The notes beneath the pieces were generated by a model. It had not been told where the DNA came from, did no database searches, and saw only the letters and a list, made by a program, of their open reading frames with translations. A stretch of 64,000 nt of DNA from positions 1-64,000 of the forward strand of contig NZ_SNZV01000004.1 of NCBI RefSeq assembly GCF_004364125.1, read 5' to 3'. The DNA is from Sphingobacterium paludis. Its GTDB lineage: Bacteria; Bacteroidota; Bacteroidia; Sphingobacteriales; Sphingobacteriaceae. Below are positions 50,417 to 61,201 of the stretch, piece after piece. Position 1 is the stretch's first letter, and the number at the start of each line of letters is the position of its first letter. The translations under genes and the position numbers were made by a program.

Positions 50417-51370
50417 ATGATCAATAAAGAAACAAAGATATTTATCGCAGGCCATCGAGGCATGGTTGGCGGTGCCATCAAAAGAAATCTGGAACAAAAA
50501 GGCTATAGCAATTTGATCGTTCGCACATCTTCCGAATTAGATTTGCGCAACCAAGCCGATGTGGCCGCTTTTTTCGAAAAAGAAAAGCCGCAGGTAGTGG
50601 TGGATGCAGCGGCCCGCGTAGGTGGTATTTTGGCAAACAATAATTTTCCGTATCAATTTTTAATGGAAAACATGCAAATTCAGAATAATTTAATTGATGC
50701 CTCGTTAAAGACGGATGTGCAGAAGTTTATTTTTCTAGGTTCTTCCTGTATCTATCCAAAATTTGCACCTCAACCGCTTAAAGAAGACTATCTTCTAACA
50801 GATAGTTTAGAGCCTACCAACGAATGGTACGCCGTTGCCAAGATAACGGGTGTGAAAGCCTGTGAAGCTATTCGCAAGCAATTTGGTAAAGATTACGTAA
50901 GCTTAATGCCAACTAACCTTTACGGCACGTATGACAACTTTGATCTCCAAACATCTCATGTGCTACCTGCCATGATCCGTAAGTTTCATGAAGCCAAAGA
51001 AAGCGGCCACCTGCCTGTTACCCTTTGGGGCTCGGGCACACCGATGCGCGAGTTTCTTTTTGTCGATGACTTGGCGGAGGCTGTGGTTTTCGCTTTGGAT
51101 AATGCATTGCCAGATTATCTATATAACGTTGGAACAGGGGTCGATTTGACGATCAAGGAGCTGGCCGAAGTCATTCAAAAGGCCGTTGGCCACGAGGGCG
51201 AAATTATCTGGGATAGCAGTAAGCCGGATGGCACACCCCGTAAATTAATGGACATTTCAAAAATGCACGCTTTGGGTTGGAAGCACAAAGTCGAGCTGGA
51301 TGAAGGAATTGAAAAAACCTACGCCTGGTTCTTGCAGAACACACAAAATTATAAAGAAGTAAAGTTATAA
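50417..51370 (+). CDS. fcl: GDP-L-fucose synthase
   Basis: A 317-aa epimerase/reductase that converts GDP-4-keto-6-deoxy-D-mannose into GDP-L-fucose. Visible: AGHRGMVGGAI (NADP site), AARVGGILANN, LGSSCIYPK (active-site Ser/Cys), the catalytic YAVAK, and MPTNLYG. It is placed before gmd, which makes its substrate. No GDP-mannose-forming genes are in the window. Confidence 0.95.
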   Translation: MINKETKIFIAGHRGMVGGAIKRNLEQKGYSNLIVRTSSELDLRNQADVAAFFEKEKPQVVVDAAARVGGILANNNFPYQFLMENMQIQNNLIDASLKTDVQKFIFLGSSCIYPKFAPQPLKEDYLLTDSLEPTNEWYAVAKITGVKACEAIRKQFGKDYVSLMPTNLYGTYDNFDLQTSHVLPAMIRKFHEAKESGHLPVTLWGSGTPMREFLFVDDLAEAVVFALDNALPDYLYNVGTGVDLTIKELAEVIQKAVGHEGEIIWDSSKPDGTPRKLMDISKMHALGWKHKVELDEGIEKTYAWFLQNTQNYKEVKL

Positions 51371-51376
51371 AAAATA

Positions 51377-51406
51377 GCGCGTCATGGCGAAGCGTGTAGC
51401 GACGCG
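51377..51406. repeat. REP-like palindromic element
   Basis: CGCGTC (51378-51383) pairs with GACGCG (51401-51406) around a GCGAAGCGTGTAGC core. The wording resembles the dispersed GTCATxGCGAAGC..GCGACG palindromes found between genes in many bacterial genomes. Only one copy is seen in this window. Confidence 0.4.
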
Positions 51407-51479
51407 GAAATATCATAAAGTCAACATAGGAAGTATCTCAGTACGCATACTAACTACTACATACTAAAATACGAAAAAA

Positions 51480-52595
51480 ATGAAATCAGCACTAATAACC
51501 GGAATTACAGGACAAGATGGTTCTTACCTGGCAGAGCTATTGTTAGAAAAAGGGTACATGGTACATGGTATCAAGCGTAGGGCATCTTCCTTTAATACGC
51601 AACGTATCGACCACTTATACATTGATCAGCACGAACAACATGTACGGTTCAAATTGCATTATGGTGATTTGACGGATTCTACGAATCTAATCCGCATTAT
51701 TCAGGAAGTGCAGCCCGACGAGATCTATAACCTTGGCGCAATGTCACATGTGAAAGTTTCTTTCGATTCCCCGGAATATGTCGCCAACGTCGACGGTATA
51801 GGCACGTTAAGAATTCTGGAAGCGGTTCGCATCTTGGGCTTGGAGAAAAAGACCCGTATCTATCAAGCTTCTACCTCAGAGCTATACGGTGGTTTGCCTG
51901 AAAATAAAAATGAAAAAGGTTTCTATGATGAAAATTCACCGTTCTATCCACGCTCTCCATACGGTGTAGCCAAGATTTACGGTTTCTGGATTACTAAAAA
52001 CTACCGTGAAGCTTATAATATGTACGCTTGCAATGGTGTGTTATTCAACCACGAATCACCGCGTCGGGGCGAGACCTTCGTCACCCGGAAAATTACCATG
52101 GCTACCGCGGCAATTGCTTTAGGCAAACAGGAATGCTTGTACTTGGGCAACTTGAATTCATTACGCGATTGGGGCCATGCGAAAGATTATGTAGAAGCTA
52201 TGTGGCGCATTCTACAGCAAGATGTGGCGGAAGATTTTGTTATTGCTACTGGGGTAACCACCTCCGTTCGTGACTTTGTACGGATTGCCTTTGCCGAAGT
52301 GGGCGTTGAGCTGGCTTTTGATGGCGAAGCAGAAAACGAGGTGGCCACCGTTGTTTCTTGTTCAAACCCGGACTATCAGCTGGAAATCGGCAAAACCATT
52401 GTAAAAATTGACCCAACGTATTACCGGCCTACAGAGGTGGATTTGCTGCTGGGTGATCCTACAAAATCTAAGACAAAATTAGGCTGGGAACCACAGTATG
52501 ATTTAGCAGGGCTTGTCAGAGAGATGGTTGCTTCCGACCTGGAATTGGTGAAGAAAGAATCGTATAATGCTCAGTGGGAGCATATTGTCGGTTAA
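51480..52595 (+). CDS. gmd: GDP-mannose 4,6-dehydratase
   Basis: A 371-aa SDR catalysing the first step to GDP-L-fucose. It has [45 protein letters not shown] and the catalytic YGVAK, with [16 protein letters not shown] for substrate binding. With fcl it forms a complete two-step route from GDP-mannose. Confidence 0.96.
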
Positions 52596-52655: not shown

Positions 52656-54200
52656 ATGATAAAGATATTAGACTGTACACTGCGCGACGGAGGTTACTAT
52701 ACCAATTGGGATTTTAGTAAAGAGGTTGTCGATAACTACATCAAGCATACGAACAATTTGCCTATAGACTACTTAGAAGTAGGTTACAGAAGTAAGCCAA
52801 TCGATGGCTACCTAGGGAAGTACTTTTATATGCCCGTCTATGAATTGGCTCATATCAAATCCAATACGCAGAAAAAGCTTGTTATCATTTTGAATGAAAA
52901 AGATGTTCGCGTGGAAGATCTGGAGGAGTTGTTGAAACCTATTCAAGGCATCGTTTCAATGGTCCGCATTGCGCTGGATCCACAGCAGCTGCTGCGTGCA
53001 GTGCGACTAGCTGAAGCAATAAAAACCTATGGTTTCGAAGTGGGATTTAATGTGATGTACATGTCGAAGTGGAAACAGTATGACGATTTCCTAAACAATC
53101 TTGTGCATGTCAATGGTGTAGCAGATTATTTTTACATGGTGGATTCCTATGGCGGTGTTTTTCCGGCAGATGTCAAGGAAACGATCGCCCTGGTGCGCGC
53201 TAAGGTTGATGTGAAGCTAGGTTTTCATGGCCACAATAATTTGGAGCTAGCGTTGATCAATAGCTTGACAGCCATGGAAGAAGGCGTCGAAATTATTGAC
53301 TCCACCATTTTGGGAATGGGGCGCGGTGCCGGAAACCTAAAAACAGAACTCTTTTTAACGGCGTTAAATAGCCAGCATGGCCTTGATCTAAACTTCAACG
53401 CCCTAGGCGACGTGGTCGATGCATTTTCGGCATTGCATGAAAAATATAATTGGGGGACGAATCTTCCGTACATGATTTCTGGGGGAAACTCATTGCCGCA
53501 GAAAGATGTGATGGACTGGGTAACCACACGTTTTTACTCATTCAACAGTATTATTCAAGCGCTACAAAACCAGAAAGAAAAAGTAAAGGACAACGAGCAA
53601 CTTCCCGTATTCAAACCGCAGAGGCCAACAAAACGTGTGGTTGTGATTGGTGGCGGAAAAGGCGCATATGAACACGTTGACGCTGTCAAAGAGTTTATCC
53701 GCAACGATAAAGATGTGACTATCGTTCATGCCAGTTCGAAGAATGCATTAGCCTATCAAGATCTTGAAAACGAACAAATTTTTTGTTTAGTGGGCAATGA
53801 AGGCCATCGCATGGAAAAGGTGTTTGATGATTTGGGCAATTTTGGTGGCCAGACCATTTTGCCGCCATTTCCGCGTAAAATGGGAACGTATGTGCCTAGC
53901 TGCGTCAAAGACAATAGTTTCGAATTAGAAAGTGTGACCTTCACCGATAAATATCAAGATTCACATACCGCGCTAGCCCTACAGATCACGCATGACTTGG
54001 GAGCAGAAGAGATTTATTTGGTAGGCTATGATGGCTATAACGATTTTCCGATTGCTGAAAAGGAACGTCAATTGACAGCGGAAAACGAGTTTTTATTTAA
54101 TCGTTTCTTGGAATATAGCAACAAACAGGTACAAGCCATTACACCAACACGCTACGATATTCCTATGAACTCAGTTTACAGCATGATATATGACAAATAA
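52656..54200 (+). CDS. DRE-TIM (HMGL-like) aldolase fused to a Rossmann-like C-terminal domain
   Basis: A 514-aa two-domain protein. Residues 1-300 are a DRE-TIM metallolyase of the 4-hydroxy-2-oxovalerate aldolase/isopropylmalate synthase group: LDCTLRDGGY (Asp6, Arg10, Asp11) and GFHGHNN (His191, His193) supply the metal site, then GMGRGAGN. Residues about 327-514 form another domain beginning VVVIGGGKGAYEHVDAV, with DLGAEEIYLVGYDGYN, resembling the DUF115/GT42-type Rossmann fold. The aldolase half should join pyruvate (or an acyl-CoA) to an aldehyde or cleave such a product. The next two genes overlap and encode a CMP-sugar synthetase and a HAD phosphatase, so synthesis of a 2-keto-3-deoxy sugar acid is inferred. 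The substrate is unknown. Confidence 0.78.
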   Translation: MIKILDCTLRDGGYYTNWDFSKEVVDNYIKHTNNLPIDYLEVGYRSKPIDGYLGKYFYMPVYELAHIKSNTQKKLVIILNEKDVRVEDLEELLKPIQGIVSMVRIALDPQQLLRAVRLAEAIKTYGFEVGFNVMYMSKWKQYDDFLNNLVHVNGVADYFYMVDSYGGVFPADVKETIALVRAKVDVKLGFHGHNNLELALINSLTAMEEGVEIIDSTILGMGRGAGNLKTELFLTALNSQHGLDLNFNALGDVVDAFSALHEKYNWGTNLPYMISGGNSLPQKDVMDWVTTRFYSFNSIIQALQNQKEKVKDNEQLPVFKPQRPTKRVVVIGGGKGAYEHVDAVKEFIRNDKDVTIVHASSKNALAYQDLENEQIFCLVGNEGHRMEKVFDDLGNFGGQTILPPFPRKMGTYVPSCVKDNSFELESVTFTDKYQDSHTALALQITHDLGAEEIYLVGYDGYNDFPIAEKERQLTAENEFLFNRFLEYSNKQVQAITPTRYDIPMNSVYSMIYDK

Positions 54201-54885
54201 GGTAAGCTTTTTCCTGCCCACGCGTAAAGGGAGCCAACGCGTAATCGATAAAAATACCCGACCATTCGCGGGTAAGGATGGCGGTTTACTTCGCCATAAA
54301 TTGGAACAACTCCTGCAAATGAAAACGGTGCATGAGATCGTGCTTTCCACGAATGACGAAACGTGTATTGAAATAGCCACCTCCATACCTGGAAACTTGG
54401 AGAAGCTGGTCATTGACAGTAGGCCAGATCACCTTTGCTTGGATACAACCAATCTGAGTGATCTTATTGCCTATGTCCCTCATGTCGTCACAGGCGATCA
54501 CATCATTTGGGGGCATGTTACCACTCCCTTTGCAGATGCCCCTACCTACGATCGGGGAGTGACAAGCTACTTGGAGGGGCTGGAGCAGGGATTCGATTCG
54601 TTAGTAAGCGTCGAGAAATTCAGAAATTTTCTGTTGGACGAGGAGGGTAAGGTCGTAAATAATACTACACCGATACCCTGGCCACGCACGCAGGATCTGC
54701 AGACATTATATGAGATCAACCACGTTATGTTTATCACCAGCAAGCAAATCTATCAGCATGAAGGCAATAGGCTAGGTGCAAAACCTTTTCTTTTTGAGAT
54801 GGATAAGATGGAGTCTTTCGATGTGGATTGGGAAGAAGATTTTAAAGTTGCGGAATTAATGTATGGACATGTTCAAAAAGTATAA
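54190..54885 (+). CDS. NeuA/KdsB-like cytidylyltransferase (CMP-acidic sugar synthetase)
   Basis: A 231-aa acylneuraminate cytidylyltransferase-family protein. The N-terminal FLPTRKGSQRVIDKNTRPF is the CTP-binding signature (Arg12, Arg17, Lys20-like positions), and DVDWEEDFKVAE near the C-terminus is the metal-binding region. It should link CMP to the anomeric hydroxyl of a 2-keto-3-deoxy acid. It overlaps the aldolase gene by 11 bases and the HAD gene by 23, which couples the three. No neuB, neuC or kds gene is present, so the substrate is not ordinary sialic acid made locally. Confidence 0.84.
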   Translation: MTNKVSFFLPTRKGSQRVIDKNTRPFAGKDGGLLRHKLEQLLQMKTVHEIVLSTNDETCIEIATSIPGNLEKLVIDSRPDHLCLDTTNLSDLIAYVPHVVTGDHIIWGHVTTPFADAPTYDRGVTSYLEGLEQGFDSLVSVEKFRNFLLDEEGKVVNNTTPIPWPRTQDLQTLYEINHVMFITSKQIYQHEGNRLGAKPFLFEMDKMESFDVDWEEDFKVAELMYGHVQKV

Positions 54886-55492
54886 GGTTCTTCTTTGGGA
54901 TTTTGATGGCGTTATCATGGATTCCATGCCAATTCGCGATTTGGGATTCCTGGAAGTTTTGAAAGAATATCCGCAAGAGCAGGTTGATGCGCTTATCGCC
55001 TTTCATCAACGAAATGGGGGGCTATCGCGCTACGTAAAATTTCGGTATTTTTTTGAGCATATTCGGGGTGAATCCATCACAGATGACGAAGTGTTGCGTC
55101 TAGCTGGAAAGTTTTCAGAAGTGATGTTGTCCTTATTGATTAACAAAGACCTGTTAATCCAAGATTCCGTTCAATTTATCCAGGATAATCACCAAAACTA
55201 TGCGATGCATGTCGTATCAGGATCTGACGGACAAGAGTTGAATTACATCTGCGAGCAACTGGGGCTTGATAAATTTTTCCGATCCATCCATGGCTCACCT
55301 ACGCCGAAAAAGGATCTGGTTCGTCAGGTTTTATTGGATAACGGGTACAATCCTGACGAAGTGGTATTGATCGGAGATTCCGTAAATGACCATGAAGCGG
55401 CGCAGCATAATGCCATTGATTTTACAGGGTACAATAACGTACATCTGCATGGATTAGGAAGCTACGTAACGAGCTTTGATAGCTTAGTTTGA
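54863..55492 (+). CDS. HAD-family sugar phosphatase
   Basis: A 209-aa haloacid-dehalogenase phosphatase with a small helical cap. Motif I is WDFDGVIMDS (Asp13 nucleophile, Asp15), motif II VVSGSDGQ, the motif III Lys lies in PTPKKD, and motif IV is LIGDSVNDHEAA. By analogy to KdsC in Kdo synthesis and NANP in sialic acid synthesis it would remove the phosphate from the aldolase product before CMP activation. It could start at the ATG at 54863 or 54869; both overlap the cytidylyltransferase gene. Confidence 0.83.
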   Translation: MDMFKKYKVLLWDFDGVIMDSMPIRDLGFLEVLKEYPQEQVDALIAFHQRNGGLSRYVKFRYFFEHIRGESITDDEVLRLAGKFSEVMLSLLINKDLLIQDSVQFIQDNHQNYAMHVVSGSDGQELNYICEQLGLDKFFRSIHGSPTPKKDLVRQVLLDNGYNPDEVVLIGDSVNDHEAAQHNAIDFTGYNNVHLHGLGSYVTSFDSLV

Positions 55493-55531: not shown

Positions 55532-56548
55532 ATGAAGATTTTAGTTGAAAATTCGACTTGGAACAATGTCGGAGACGGTTGGTATCAATACTCCCTGTAT
55601 TTTCTGTTAAAAAAACTCTACCCAGATAGTAAAGTGATAATGGGCGAGGGGCCAATAAAACGATCATTCAGGATTCGTTCGGAAAAGCAACTAAGTAATG
55701 CCCTGAATCTTTTGGACTGGCAGGACGCCGACCTCCATGTTTTTTCGGGGCCGATGTTAAAATCATTGATTGCTGACTACGGAACGAAAATCAAAAAGAT
55801 AGTAGAGTCAGGAAAGCAGTATGCATTTATTAGTGTTTCTGGCGCCAATGAGGCATCCACTAAACAAACATTGGATGATGCAAAAGACTTCCTGAAAAAA
55901 TATCCACCCGTTTTCTTTTCTTCCAGAGACTCATTCACCTACAACATCTTTAAAGATGCTGTACCCAATGCATACGATGGGATCTGTACCGCTTTTCTTG
56001 TTGATTTGACGCTGGAGCTGGATACCTTCAAAATGGACAAACCATTTTTCGTAAGTTCTTTCTACATGGAAAATGAACCCGATTTTAATGTTGATCCATC
56101 AACGACCTTATCGATAGAAAATTTAGAAGTCAAGCATAGAAAGAATAAATGGGGTTTGCCCTTCAAATATGCTCGCCATTTAAATTACACCTTGCCACAA
56201 CAGGCAGAAGTAGGAGGTCATCAAATCGTTCGACTTATCCAGAACTTAAATACAAAATTCAACCACATCAATTTCGCTATGCCGAATAGCTTTATGAGTT
56301 TCAATCCCATTACCTATCTAGAGGTGATCAAATCGGCAGAATTTGTGGTTTCGGACCGTGTGCATGCATGCGCGACTTCTTTAGCATGTAATAAGCCTGC
56401 GAGGTTCCTTTTCGACACGCCGCGCGCCGTCATTTTTGATCGATTAGGATTTGACTATAAGTCGAATAAAGGCATCATGTATCCCAATATGGACAAAATT
56501 GCGGAAGAGAAATCGAAGCTTGAGGATAAAATCAAGCAGTATATTTAG
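55532..56548 (+). CDS. Polysaccharide pyruvyl transferase-family protein
   Basis: A 338-aa protein with features of the pyruvyl transferase/CsaB family: NVGDGWYQYSL near the N-terminus, FFSSRDSFTYNIF in the middle and VVSDRVHACATSLACNKPARF near the C-terminus. Characterised members add a ketal pyruvate from phosphoenolpyruvate to a sugar, though relatives with other roles exist. It follows the coupled trio by 39 bp. Whether it acts on the CMP-linked sugar or on another residue of the repeat unit cannot be told. Confidence 0.76.
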   Translation: MKILVENSTWNNVGDGWYQYSLYFLLKKLYPDSKVIMGEGPIKRSFRIRSEKQLSNALNLLDWQDADLHVFSGPMLKSLIADYGTKIKKIVESGKQYAFISVSGANEASTKQTLDDAKDFLKKYPPVFFSSRDSFTYNIFKDAVPNAYDGICTAFLVDLTLELDTFKMDKPFFVSSFYMENEPDFNVDPSTTLSIENLEVKHRKNKWGLPFKYARHLNYTLPQQAEVGGHQIVRLIQNLNTKFNHINFAMPNSFMSFNPITYLEVIKSAEFVVSDRVHACATSLACNKPARFLFDTPRAVIFDRLGFDYKSNKGIMYPNMDKIAEEKSKLEDKIKQYI

Positions 56549-56589: not shown

Positions 56590-57900
56590 TTGTCACTAAC
56601 AAAAAGAAATATCATTAAAAATGGGATATCCACCGCCGGGCAAAAAGGGGTTAGGATATTGGAACAATTATTCCTGGTACCCTTTTTTATTTCCCAGTGG
56701 GGAGCGGCATATTATGGTGAATGGTTGACGTTAACGATTGTTCCATCCGTTTTAGCATTTACCGATTTAGGGATGGGTTCAGCAGCAGCAAATGGATTCG
56801 TCCTCAAATACGCAGCCGGCGAACGGCAGGAAGCCAGAAATATGGGGTATACCGGCTTTTTGGTCGTGTCTGCTGTCATTCTCGTTTCTGTACTATTAGG
56901 GGCGATCGGCATCGCGCTGGCCTATCATTTCAATTGGTTGAAAAACTCACTCATCCCGCAAGATGAAGCGCTCACAGCCCTAGCTTTTATGATCCTGTCC
57001 AAGGTGTTGACCTTTTACATGGAGCTTTTTGAAGCCCGGTTCAGAGCCGCACGAAAAGCGGTGTTAGGTATCAATCTCAGTACGGTGAACAGTTTGCTGA
57101 ATATTGGAGTGGGGCTTACGGTGCTTATGCTCGGCTATGGTGTAGTGGTTTATGCAATTAGTCAGTTTGTGATTGCGCTACTCTACAACGTTCTTTATGC
57201 CTTCATCGCCAATAAAATCTTGGGCTTACGGAAGCAATTTAAAGCAACCTACAATGCCGTATACGCCAAAGCTATTTTAGCAAAAGGCCTAGGGTATATG
57301 ATGTCGCCATTGTGGCAAGCGGTTTTGTTTCAAGGCACCACCTTTGTGGTTCGGATTGCGTTAGGGCCTGAATCCGTTGCCATTTTCAATACCGTGCGGA
57401 CACTCTCTCGTTCGGTAAACCAAGTTTACAGCATTGTAAATGCGAGTATTTTTCCAGAGCTGCAATATGAGATTGGTGCTGGAAATTTGCCGAAAGCTAA
57501 GGGTATCCTAATGGGGTCGATGAAAGTCACGGCCATCCTTGCGGTGCTCGGTGTGCTTTTTATGTCTGCATTTGGTTTGCCTATATATAATCTATGGACA
57601 GATAACGCCCTCCAGCCATCCTATACCATGTGGTATTTCTTTATCGCCGCTACAGGCTTCAACGCCATATGGTGGACCTCGGCTGTCGTCTTTCGGGCCA
57701 CGAATAAACCCTATCAACTATCTTTTGCAGGGTTGATATTCTCCGTACTCGCGATAGGATTCACCTACGTTGGTGCTAAATTTTGGGGACTACAGGGAGC
57801 CGCTCTCGGAAGTTTATTGTTTGAAGTTTGTATGGCGGCTTATATCCTTCCAAAAAGCTTTTTATTAATCGAAGGTGCCAAACTAGAATTTACATCATGA
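56590..57900 (+). CDS. wzx: Polysaccharide flippase (Wzx), locus 2
   Basis: A 436-aa PST/MATE-type transporter with about 12 hydrophobic helices; the segments TFTDLG-like (FTDLGMGSAAANGFVLKYAAG) and RTLSRSVNQVYSIVNASIFPEL are typical. It uses a TTG start at 56590; no ATG or GTG gives the conserved KRNIIKNGISTAGQKGV start. It overlaps the next gene in an ATGA arrangement. Confidence 0.9.
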   Translation: MSLTKRNIIKNGISTAGQKGVRILEQLFLVPFFISQWGAAYYGEWLTLTIVPSVLAFTDLGMGSAAANGFVLKYAAGERQEARNMGYTGFLVVSAVILVSVLLGAIGIALAYHFNWLKNSLIPQDEALTALAFMILSKVLTFYMELFEARFRAARKAVLGINLSTVNSLLNIGVGLTVLMLGYGVVVYAISQFVIALLYNVLYAFIANKILGLRKQFKATYNAVYAKAILAKGLGYMMSPLWQAVLFQGTTFVVRIALGPESVAIFNTVRTLSRSVNQVYSIVNASIFPELQYEIGAGNLPKAKGILMGSMKVTAILAVLGVLFMSAFGLPIYNLWTDNALQPSYTMWYFFIAATGFNAIWWTSAVVFRATNKPYQLSFAGLIFSVLAIGFTYVGAKFWGLQGAALGSLLFEVCMAAYILPKSFLLIEGAKLEFTS

Positions 57901-59147
57901 AAAGAATTATCATAGCCCACGTATCAAAACAACATTCTTTTCACACGGCAGTTGCCTTGAAGAGGGCCGGTATGTTATCAAAGTATATAACAACGGTTTA
58001 CGACAAGCAAAGTTCGTTAACGGGGAAGGTGAAAAAACTTTTGAAAGGGGCTACTCTCAATAAAGCAAGTACCCGCCGCTCGGCCGAACTGGAGGACGAT
58101 TCTGTGCTTCTTATTGGCGAATTCTTCGGTTTGTTGCGCATCTTTTTAAGACGATTTAAAAAGATTAACATCGATGCTTTCGTCATGGACTATTTTGGAA
58201 GAAACGTAGCGAATTACGTCATCCAAGAAAAGCCCGATGCAGTTATTCTATACGATGGTGTGGGGAAAAAATACATCGATAAAATAAAGAAGAAATCTCC
58301 AAATACTAAGGTAATTATGGATGTCACCATCTCCTCACGCTTGTATATGAAAGAAATATTTGAGGAAGACATGAGGTTGTATGGGCATGATAAGTTTTAC
58401 AAGCAAGAAGCTAGTCTGTGGAATGAAGAACATCTACGCAATGTTCGCGACGACTTTCGGCATTGCGATTATTATTTTGTTCCTTCCGAGGTGGTCAAAA
58501 GAAGTTTGGTTGCGGCTAACGTACCGCTCTCTAAATTAGTTAAGATACCGTATGGCGTGTCTGTGCGCGATTTTTCCTTTCACGAGAAGCCTCAGAGACT
58601 TGCTACAGAGCCGCTGCGACTACTTTTCGTAGGTGGCGTAATGCATAGGAAAGGGATCCATCACCTTTGTGAGCTCGTCTCCATGTACAATGAGCAAGAG
58701 GTTATTCTAGAAATTGCCGGGGGGGTGGTAGCCTTTGAGGACACGCCGGAAAAATACCACGAGCGTAGTAACATAAAATTTTTAGGCTTTGTTACGCGCG
58801 ACCGCATCGCAGAGAAATTCAAGCATGCTGATGTGTTTATCCTTCCTTCTTTGGGAGAGGGCTTGGCCTTGGTTATTTTAGAAGCGCTAGCCACAGGCAC
58901 ACCTGTACTCACTTCGAATTTATCGGGAGGGAATGATGCCGTGATCAATTATGAAAATGGGATTGTGTATGATTACAACCAACTGGAACAATTGGCGCAA
59001 GCTATTGAATGGTTTAGATCCAATAGAGACAAGATTCCGGCAATGTCAAGAGCCGCTCGGCGGACCGTGGAAGAAGAATATTCATGGGAAAGATATTACG
59101 AAGATGTGGTTCGTAAAATGAATAATATTTTAGAAGTAAATCAGTAA
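57897..59147 (+). CDS. GT4 family glycosyltransferase
   Basis: A 416-aa GT-B transferase. It has RIIIAHVSKQHSFHTAVALKRAG at the start, LRLLFVGGVMHRKGIHHL at the donor-domain start, KFLGFVTRDRIAEKF and the EX7E segment PSLGEGLALVILEALATGTPVL. The frame is open 23 codons further upstream into wzx, but the ATG at 57897 overlaps the wzx stop as ATGA and gives a normal N-terminus. Sugar specificity is unknown. Confidence 0.88.
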   Translation: MKRIIIAHVSKQHSFHTAVALKRAGMLSKYITTVYDKQSSLTGKVKKLLKGATLNKASTRRSAELEDDSVLLIGEFFGLLRIFLRRFKKINIDAFVMDYFGRNVANYVIQEKPDAVILYDGVGKKYIDKIKKKSPNTKVIMDVTISSRLYMKEIFEEDMRLYGHDKFYKQEASLWNEEHLRNVRDDFRHCDYYFVPSEVVKRSLVAANVPLSKLVKIPYGVSVRDFSFHEKPQRLATEPLRLLFVGGVMHRKGIHHLCELVSMYNEQEVILEIAGGVVAFEDTPEKYHERSNIKFLGFVTRDRIAEKFKHADVFILPSLGEGLALVILEALATGTPVLTSNLSGGNDAVINYENGIVYDYNQLEQLAQAIEWFRSNRDKIPAMSRAARRTVEEEYSWERYYEDVVRKMNNILEVNQ

Positions 59148-59150
59148 CAA

Positions 59151-59942
59151 ATGGGGTTTTGGGAATATATGATAAAAAAAGATGCTCAGATTTGTTCGGG
59201 TATTGATTGGGCGTTGGGCGTTAAGGCTTCACTAAATCCTAAAGTGCAACATGTACTTAAACGCATGGATAAGTTGCCCAAAGCCGGGCCAGGACGGGAA
59301 GCATTAGTCATTCTAAATGGTCCATCGCTGAAGGAGCAAGATATCACGCAGATTCACGAGAATGTAGATTTGGTATTTGTTAATAGAGGATTTATGCATC
59401 AAGATTTTGCACGCGTAAAGCCGAGATATCATGTGTTTGTGGATCCTAAAATGCTGACAGGCGAGTGGTCGTTGACTTGGATTGATGATATTGTTGCTAT
59501 GGTGCCTGATATCACCATAGTGTTGCCGGTCACTTGGGCGTTTCGTCCCGAATTTAAACGGTTTATAGATAACAACACGAAAATACATTGGATTCCCGAT
59601 TTTAAAAAATGCTATTGTGTGGGCGTTTCGGGAAATTGCTTTGACTTCTTGGCCAGCCAAGATTACAAAACTATTTATTTCACGGGTTTTGATGCCAATG
59701 GTCTGCCGCTGGAGATGCTGAATGTTTCAAACAGTCATTTTTACGGAAAGAATGAGGAAAACTTAACGAAAACAAGCAAGGAGTATGTGCGGGATCTGTA
59801 TATGTTTTCCAGACACTTCGCCGATCTTAATAAGATGTCAAATTTATACAAAAAAAGAAATATCCGACTGGTTAACCTAACACAGGGTGGCTTGTTGGAT
59901 ATGTTTGAGCGAGAACATATACGTATTTTAGATAAAAGATGA
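59151..59942 (+). CDS. DUF115/GT42-like protein, putative CMP-sugar transferase
   Basis: A 263-aa cytoplasmic protein. ALVILNGPSLKEQDI (about residues 51-65), HVFVDPKML, GVSGNCFDFL, IYFTGFDANG and SNSHFYGKNEEN follow the order seen in GT42 sialyltransferases such as Cst-I/Cst-II and in DUF115 proteins. Because a CMP-sugar synthetase is encoded 4.3 kb upstream, transfer of that CMP-sugar is the attractive reading. It is an inference from a weak motif pattern. It overlaps the polymerase gene by 4 bases. Confidence 0.62.
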   Translation: MGFWEYMIKKDAQICSGIDWALGVKASLNPKVQHVLKRMDKLPKAGPGREALVILNGPSLKEQDITQIHENVDLVFVNRGFMHQDFARVKPRYHVFVDPKMLTGEWSLTWIDDIVAMVPDITIVLPVTWAFRPEFKRFIDNNTKIHWIPDFKKCYCVGVSGNCFDFLASQDYKTIYFTGFDANGLPLEMLNVSNSHFYGKNEENLTKTSKEYVRDLYMFSRHFADLNKMSNLYKKRNIRLVNLTQGGLLDMFEREHIRILDKR

Positions 59943-61201
59943 GCGTAATACTGATTTGGATTTATGTACTACTGAATGTATTCTTTATAGTTCGCTATTT
60001 CAGAATAAAGAGTGGCACGTTTCAAGCTCCATTTTTGATGGCGGGTGTCTCGCTGGGCGTATTGCTGCCACAGCTTACCACCTACTACCTCAGTCCGGTA
60101 TACGATAACGAACTGCTGTACTTACTATTGTTTGTCATGATAACAGGTAACGCCTCTTTCGTGTACGGCTTTGAACGCGGAAAATCCAGGGCAATTCCAA
60201 AATCCATCATGACGCTCAATATGAATGATACGCTTGTTTATCTCAACCTGTTCTTTGCTATTTTAGGCTGTCTCAGCGTTTTGATATACCGCGACGATAA
60301 TTCCGATTTTGTAATAGGGGCGTTTCTTAAAGCATTTGCACAATTCAGCTTTTTCACTTCGCTGATCCTTGTCGTCTACTACAAGCCCAATACTTTTGTA
60401 TACCTCGCTTTGATATTGTCCTTTGCGACCATCTTCAATTTTGCATTTCTAGTAAAAGGGTCTAGGTCAGACTCTTTACTGTTAGGTCTCGCGATCCTAT
60501 TGTTCCTCAATTTTTATAAGGGTTTTAATAAAAAAGTAAAATACTTCACTCTTGGCATGTTTCTTTTTGGCGCCGTGTTTAGTGCGAGTATCACCATGAT
60601 CCGAAATTATATTAAAGATGGTGAAGCTTTTGGTGATTCGTTCTATGAAAATTTTACCGAATCTTTCTCCGAGGATGGAACAGAGCAAACTTTGGGGATG
60701 GATATAGCAAATGCTGCGAAAGGAATAGCCTATTGTTGGGAAAACATGGAGTATGATTACGGCCTGCAGCTGTGGAATGGCTTTGTTTACAACTTTGTGC
60801 CGAAGAGGTTGGTCGGAGAGGACATAAAAAATTCGTTGACCTATGAAAATGGCTACACGCAAAAGCTTCCCACTTGGACACATGGCGTTACTACCATGAC
60901 GGGGTATGCCTCCGCTTTCGCATCCTTTTCCGTCTTCTCATTTTTATTCTTTTTCGCGGTAGGATACATCTATGGATGGATATGGAAATATTCGGCATAC
61001 TCCACGTACTACCTATTGCTCTATTTCTGGCAAGTCACCTGGTTGCACGCCTTCTTTTCGCACGGGATGCAATTGTTTTTCGGGCGCTTAGAAAGCTTTT
61101 TTATCTTTTTATTCCCCATTTTAATCTTATTTGGATGCCTACGGCAGCGGAAGATGGTTGCAAAAAGATCGCAGGCACGCGTACAATTAGAAATACACTA
61201 A
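59939..61201 (+). CDS. wzy: Oligosaccharide repeat-unit polymerase (Wzy), locus 2
   Basis: A 420-aa membrane protein with about 11-12 helices. FLVKGSRSDSLLLGLAILLFL matches the conserved central motif of the O-antigen polymerase family, and a long extracytoplasmic loop follows at about residues 220-310. It ends IFLFPILILFGC and a basic tail. It differs from the ligase-type Wzy of locus 1. It starts 4 bases before the end of the upstream gene. Confidence 0.85.
   Translation: MSVILIWIYVLLNVFFIVRYFRIKSGTFQAPFLMAGVSLGVLLPQLTTYYLSPVYDNELLYLLLFVMITGNASFVYGFERGKSRAIPKSIMTLNMNDTLVYLNLFFAILGCLSVLIYRDDNSDFVIGAFLKAFAQFSFFTSLILVVYYKPNTFVYLALILSFATIFNFAFLVKGSRSDSLLLGLAILLFLNFYKGFNKKVKYFTLGMFLFGAVFSASITMIRNYIKDGEAFGDSFYENFTESFSEDGTEQTLGMDIANAAKGIAYCWENMEYDYGLQLWNGFVYNFVPKRLVGEDIKNSLTYENGYTQKLPTWTHGVTTMTGYASAFASFSVFSFLFFFAVGYIYGWIWKYSAYSTYYLLLYFWQVTWLHAFFSHGMQLFFGRLESFFIFLFPILILFGCLRQRKMVAKRSQARVQLEIH

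Follow-up and report, generated by a model that had tools for sequence, protein, structure and literature searches.

The pathway to 3-deoxy-D-manno-oct-2-ulosonic acid (Kdo) consists of KdsA, KdsC and KdsB, with KdsA depending on phosphoenolpyruvate (PEP), and the pathways to sialic, pseudaminic and legionaminic acids use NeuB or PseI together with the cytidine monophosphate (CMP)-sugar synthetases NeuA or PseF. To our knowledge, all known routes to such acidic surface sugars employ irreversible PEP-dependent synthases. Here we describe three overlapping genes of Sphingobacterium paludis, located in the first 64,000 nucleotides of contig NZ_SNZV01000004.1 (this whole stretch is referred to as the window), that encode a two-domain aldolase, a CMP-sugar synthetase and a HAD phosphatase. 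We propose, with a probability of roughly 0.6, that this trio is a conserved cassette making a CMP-activated 2-keto-3-deoxy acid from pyruvate, rather than PEP, and a sugar aldehyde. Judged from its sequence, the cassette would represent a form of CMP-ulosonic acid biosynthesis and not a member of the 4-hydroxy-2-oxovalerate aldolase (HOA; DmpG, MhpE) family. Full-text searches of the open-access literature found no description of it.

The proposed route resembles the Kdo pathway in its likely sequence of C–C bond formation, dephosphorylation and CMP activation of a 2-keto-3-deoxy acid, and in the KdsB-like synthetase found in 41 of the 88 loci sorted below. It differs in that the window cassette lacks KdsA, which is encoded on another contig, and in that its HAD protein is not of the KdsC type. 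With the sialic, pseudaminic and legionaminic acid pathways it shares a PseF/NeuA-like CMP-synthetase and, in some loci, GT29 or PF01973 transferase genes. In contrast to those pathways, the window genome has no NeuB, and an HMGL-fold aldolase stands in NeuB's place.

The three open reading frames lie on the + strand, as an earlier note on this DNA had described. They encode an HMGL-like aldolase of 514 residues (52656..54200; PF00682, 85.3 bits, cut-off 29), a PseF/NeuA-like CMP-synthetase of 231 residues (54190..54885; CTP_transf_3 PF02348, 31.0 bits, cut-off 22.6) and a HAD phosphatase of 209 residues (54863..55492; HAD_2 PF13419, 55.1 bits, cut-off 23.8). The first and second genes overlap by 11 nt (54190-54200), the second and third by 23 nt (54863-54885). 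All three Pfam matches exceed their cut-offs, and the trio described in the note is confirmed. The CMP-synthetase, 94% identical to a Sphingobacterium deserti protein, also matches NeuA chains in a sequence search of the PDB and scores 65.2 bits against the PseF model TIGR03584, below the curated cut-off of 205.7. The HAD protein reaches 14.2 bits against the KdsC-type model TIGR01670, below its curated cut-off of 106.95.

The trio co-occurs in many other loci. From 564 relatives confirmed in a genome scan, the best 80 loci were taken; once loci from plasmids and elsewhere are included, 91 encode an aldolase of at least 470 residues, and 73 of these include at least 2.5 kb of downstream sequence. 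Nine longer stretches bring the full-flank set to 82, in which two pairs have identical aldolases. Within 3.5 kb downstream on the same strand, 68 of the 73 loci carry a CMP-synthetase gene, 48 a HAD gene and 46 both, compared with 35, 6 and 0 of 377 control genes (other genes of at least 300 residues in the same loci, away from the aldolase). In the full-flank set, a CMP-synthetase gene is found within the same 3.5 kb in 77 of 82 loci, and one of the five misses (L084 in our numbering) has one annotated; 58 have a HAD gene, belonging to one or the other of two kinds, within 5 kb. Among 395 Bacteroidota genomes, all ten matches that span approximately residues 2-510, from nine genomes including that of the window, have both partners. 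This count leaves out a distant long relative (G323/L100, 27% identity, matched over residues 2-309), which has the HAD gene and no CMP-synthetase gene within its short flank. The Bacteroidota draw and the locus counts together indicate a cassette that is rare per genome and tightly kept.

The N-terminal DRE-TIM domain of the aldolase (residues 1-314; 52656..53597, + strand) matches PDB entry 3dxi over residues 2-313, with 432 bits and 60% identity. This entry, BVU_2661, is titled 'N-terminal domain of a putative aldolase'; it belongs to the same family, only its N-domain was solved, and the title gives it no function. The window aldolase has 5450 relatives, and among the 120 matches listed, identities range from 59 to 81% apart from the window's own, with 81% for a Sphingobacterium multivorum protein. 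Organism titles place the family in Bacteroidota, Balneolota, Pseudomonadota, Bacillota, Omnitrophota, Elusimicrobiota, Chloroflexota, Cyanobacteriota and Myxococcota, with many metagenome-assembled genomes.

The domain shares with HOA its fold, the R-D and H-x-H residues and an equivalent of Ser171. The metal ligands D11, H191 and H193 and the preceding Arg10 are retained, as in HOA, in all 79 aligned rows, in which W18, D163, R223 and N227 are invariant as well; Ser164 aligns with Ser171 of 1nvm, which we take to be a pyruvate-binding residue. In other respects the two differ considerably. The window aldolase scores far below the curated cut-offs of the HOA models (TIGR03217, 92.4 bits against 286; PRK08195, 106.2 against 229), and HOA structures score at most 58 bits against it among PDB sequences; superfamily synthase models, at 65 bits or less, rank under the HOA models. 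The histidine of the RDGxH motif, which is catalytic in HOA, is replaced by Tyr14 in 78 of the 79 rows and is present in one; the window aldolase reads RDGGY. The aldolase also has an extra C-terminal domain, and the window cassette contains no acetaldehyde dehydrogenase. In a quick tree of 116 rows, which carries long-branch warnings and from which four of 120 rows were dropped (L073, L119, L133 and L002), the seven RDGxH rows fall on one side with a support of 98, and the window belongs to a 94-row RDGG-type group with a support of 89; two RDGG rows sit outside that group. The aldolase is thus placed outside the HOA clade, and clustering with catabolic HOA, a possibility the earlier note had raised, was not seen. 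Sub-cut-off scores, the RDGGY motif and the separate clade together reject a catabolic HOA identity.

The second domain of the aldolase, of approximately 195 residues (residues 320-514; 53613..54197, + strand), is absent from the earlier account. Modeled alone, with a predicted local distance difference test score (pLDDT) of 96, it is predicted to adopt the Maf / SteA / HPPK / CstII fold. Maf and CstII are transferases acting on CMP-ulosonic acids, and in the window, in contrast to Maf (PDB 5mu5) and CstII, the predicted domain of this fold is fused to an aldolase. Sequence identity to Maf and CstII is 11-13%. An alignment of 68 of the 77 usable locus domains plus the window shows conservation of G334, the motif G457-x-D459-G460-Y461, E476, Y500 and S506. 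The MptE-like/Maf central family PF01973 matches 37 of the 69 members at E ≤ 0.1 (best 6.4e-7); a search of PDB sequences with the domain profile found nothing under E 0.12, with CstII chains at 0.82 and worse. The fold assignment was not taken from the full-length aldolase model, which is only fair (pLDDT 79, predicted template modeling score 0.55). In one locus (L012, aldolase residues 325-505), identity to the window is 57% in the C-domain and 55% in the N-domain, which hints at domain exchange; the usual trend is the opposite, as in L033, with 60% in the N-domain and 32% in the C-domain.

A separate candidate transferase, likewise overlooked by the earlier note, is encoded downstream at 59151..59942 (+ strand, 263 residues). 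We regard it as a putative CMP-ulosonate transferase of the PF01973 / CST-I kind, with sub-cut-off CST-I and MptE matches; its score against the GT42 CST-I family PF06002 is 15.5 bits, below the cut-off of 25. Among 30 aligned relatives, 25 match PF01973 at E ≤ 0.05 (best 5.2e-8), and an NGPSL motif is conserved. A profile built from these relatives has no match among PDB sequences at E ≤ 1, and its agreement with the C-domain profile is weak, at a probability of 45.7%; in the locus set the profile of relatives retrieved six open reading frames at E < 1e-3, one of them the L071 aldolase itself. Ten apparent shared genomes, counted by eye among 120 listed relatives of each protein, suggest that this gene and the CMP-synthetase are linked. 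A comparable protein, likened here by its published description, is ORF4 of the E. coli K15 capsule locus, a predicted α-Kdo transferase with a predicted Maf/CstII-like fold (PMC7387560). ORF4 stands alone, unlike the fused C-domain.

The partners of the aldolase vary in kind. By profile sorting, which replaced an earlier motif-based sorting that left 21 of 88 loci unsorted, 43 loci have a PseF-like CMP-synthetase, 41 a KdsB-like one and the remaining four a third kind, NeuA. On the aldolase tree (81 rows), the partner changes kind at least 17 times, compared with an average of 29, and never fewer than 24, in 200 shuffles. Given these switches, the common trait would be CMP activation of a 2-keto acid. 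Within 5 kb, HpcH-type aldolase genes occur in nine of the 82 loci, and three of the encoded proteins were scanned; their best models are HpaI, GarL and 2-keto-3-deoxy-L-rhamnonate aldolase, all below cut-off. PfkB genes occur in three of 82 loci, all without a HAD gene within 5 kb, and the two proteins scanned best match, below cut-off, models of a KHG/KDPG aldolase-sugar kinase fusion and of KDG kinase. A GT29-like gene is found within 5 kb in six of 82 loci, with PF00777 confirmed in L003. The range of CMP-synthetases and the HpcH, PfkB and GT29 neighbors point to a 2-keto-3-deoxy acid transferred by sialyltransferase-like enzymes. Aldolase genes paired with KdsB-like genes and lacking adjoining sugar genes (for example L029) would fit a central metabolite as the aldehyde.

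The earlier note had also stated that no NeuB, NeuC or Kds gene is present. For NeuB this holds genome-wide, as the genome, which is 99.9% complete, contains no PF03102 match anywhere. The Kds part applies only to the neighborhood of the trio: KdsA (TIGR01362, 381.7 bits) is encoded on contig C1, with a weak second match on C6, and the sole other PF02348 protein of the genome, which scores more strongly and is presumably KdsB, is also on C1; the window lies on C4. NeuC did not appear among the proteins scanned, although no genome-wide search for it was made. We found no other ulosonate synthase in the genome that could supply the window CMP-synthetase, in searches confined to the NeuB and KdsA families.

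Based on these features, we propose the following scheme. The metal-dependent N-domain would form a pyruvate enolate and add it to a sugar aldehyde, probably a phosphate. Dephosphorylation by the HAD protein would follow; some loci may skip this step or carry it out elsewhere. Activation of the resulting 2-keto acid with cytidine triphosphate (CTP), by the PseF- or KdsB-like synthetase, would come third and pull the reversible aldol reaction forward. Finally, transfer of the sugar to the elongating polysaccharide would fall to the fused domain of Maf/CstII fold, or to a stand-alone transferase of the PF01973 or GT29 kind (here, for example, 59151-59942). As pyruvate aldol reactions can run in both directions, coupling to CTP hydrolysis may supply the drive that PEP gives NeuB and KdsA.

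Several observations weigh against this proposal. Of the 82 loci, 24 have no HAD gene within 5 kb, and three of the 73 (L050, L055 and L060) have neither partner. The tyrosine at the position of HOA's histidine means that the base or the donor may differ. The C-domain of the window scores 17.0 bits against PF01973, below the cut-off of 34.6, and its fold is also common to HPPK, thiamine pyrophosphokinase and SteA; moreover, GT29-bearing loci retain this domain, so it need not be a transferase. The second, HpcH-type aldolase in nine loci could make the acid instead, and four of 80 distinct loci (five of 82 rows) have a NeuB gene no more than 5 kb away. The interpretation given in the earlier note gains from the co-occurrence, the non-HOA clade, the placement of the NeuB and Kdo genes and the 2-keto-3-deoxy-type neighbors. 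It is only partly supported, because we infer the donor, the aldehyde and the product, because of the loci lacking a nearby HAD gene, and because it had missed the C-domain and the gene at 59151-59942.

The function of the C-domain separates two extensions of the proposed scheme. We tentatively suggest a third, PEP-independent route to CMP-ulosonic acids, in which a metal-dependent pyruvate aldolase and its own Maf/CstII-like transferase form a single polypeptide that would both make the acid and hand on the CMP-sugar; with an interchangeable CMP-synthetase, the cassette would be mobile across Bacteroidota, Pseudomonadota, Omnitrophota, Cyanobacteriota and other phyla and would give rise to undescribed surface acids. 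Alternatively, the domain may be kinase-like, akin to HPPK and thiamine pyrophosphokinase, and phosphorylate the aldehyde or an intermediate, with separate transferases and the first three steps unchanged; the shared fold and the GT29-bearing loci speak for this, and we consider it a real possibility, if short of an even chance.

Other readings depart from the scheme earlier. The substrate of the CMP-synthetase could be Kdo or some other acid produced elsewhere, with the aldolase performing a separate step on the polysaccharide. The host genome indeed makes its own KdsA product, nine loci contain the additional HpcH-type aldolase, and about half of the partners are KdsB-like. However, C1 already encodes another PF02348 protein with a stronger score, the aldolase and CMP-synthetase genes stay paired through the 17 or more switches of synthetase type, and they also persist as two-gene pairs lacking HAD, which makes this reading unlikely. 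Less probable still is carboligase activity of the DRE-TIM domain, Claisen-type or otherwise, with an acyl-CoA or another 2-oxo acid as donor and a branched or modified acid as product. The superfamily also includes isopropylmalate, citramalate and homocitrate synthases, Tyr14 replaces HOA's histidine, and Arg223 takes the place of a small residue in GMGxGAGN; in addition, a short relative in Desulfobaculum (L134:2837-7005) follows RfbH and two transketolase halves, an arrangement resembling branched-sugar genes. Against this, the best curated models are those of HOA (106 and 92 bits), above the synthases; the RDGxQ motif is absent, with RDGxQ rows forming a separate clade, and the optional neighboring enzymes are of 2-keto-3-deoxy-acid types. 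As for a chance neighborhood in gene-rich polysaccharide loci, such loci are mosaic and CMP-synthetase genes are common in them, yet both partners accompany none of the controls and 46 of 73 aldolases, and all ten matches of the Bacteroidota draw. The control and the draw largely reject this explanation, to which we give hardly any weight.

If the proposed scheme is correct, bacteria would use a reversible pyruvate aldolase, instead of a PEP-dependent synthase, to produce an acidic sugar of their surface. It would assign a function to a widespread family that databases name 'aldolase catalytic domain-containing protein' or '4-hydroxy 2-oxovalerate aldolase', would explain the solved but functionally unassigned structure 3dxi, and would provide a genetic marker for new 2-keto-3-deoxy acids in the polysaccharides that marine, soil and gut bacteria make. 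In addition, pyruvate aldolases with stereoselectivity are valuable catalysts.

The trio lies within a surface-polysaccharide locus. Directly upstream are GDP-fucose-type genes (50417..52595), namely an Fcl-like gene (50417-51370, +; Fcl model, 474.6 bits, just under the cut-off of 500) and Gmd (51480-52595, +; TIGR01472, 554.6 bits, cut-off 415). The first gene after the trio encodes a polysaccharide pyruvyl transferase family protein (55532..56548, +; PF04230, 50.8 bits, cut-off 25.3), of which no relative was found in the 80-locus set. It is followed by a flippase-like protein (56590-57900, +), a GT4 glycosyltransferase with a Pfam match (57828-59147, +) and, beyond the candidate transferase, a polymerase-like protein (59939-61201, +). 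Profile scans further identified a PF02397 initiating transferase, CpsB/CapC, Poly_export and Wzz/kinase proteins, and the Pfam scan of neighbors gave two GT4s in all and an acyltransferase. These domains fit the setting described in the earlier note; the flippase and polymerase it named are recognized by six and eight hydrophobic segments, respectively, with no Pfam match.

In DNA-level searches with a Shewanella aldolase gene, plasmids gave 238 records, one of which, from Leisingera caerulea, covered at least 80% and has the trio annotated alongside. Among E. coli genomes nothing matched this gene, and neither of two phage records covered 80%; the plasmid, phage and E. coli searches yielded no carrier with a solved sugar structure. 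Five short or partial plasmid relatives (Mesorhizobium, Priestia, Paraburkholderia, Legionella and Desulfobaculum) have no annotated CMP-synthetase in the stretches displayed, for which the gene table is incomplete. Two short single-domain relatives (L085 and L087) come from rhizobial plasmids of the symbiosis type and have HAD-IA hydrolase and SDR genes in their vicinity, and the Paraburkholderia relative also has a phosphoserine aminotransferase gene nearby.

Some loci depart from the simple trio. One Bacteroidota genome (G112; L122 and L123) carries two complete cassettes approximately 20 kb apart, with different kinds of CMP-synthetase. A radical-SAM-like gene cluster, so labeled from reading the sequence rather than from a scan, lies near the aldolase in seven loci (L055, L060, L062, L067, L071, L076 and L058); in two Pelagibacter loci it adjoins an aldolase gene with neither a CMP-synthetase nor a HAD partner. 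Loci from Omnitrophota and proteobacteria (L057:11624-15000, L067, L069, L058 and L078) show a variant of the cassette that inserts an LdpA-like ferredoxin-domain gene, a different HAD gene and an HpcH aldolase gene between the aldolase and the KdsB-like gene.

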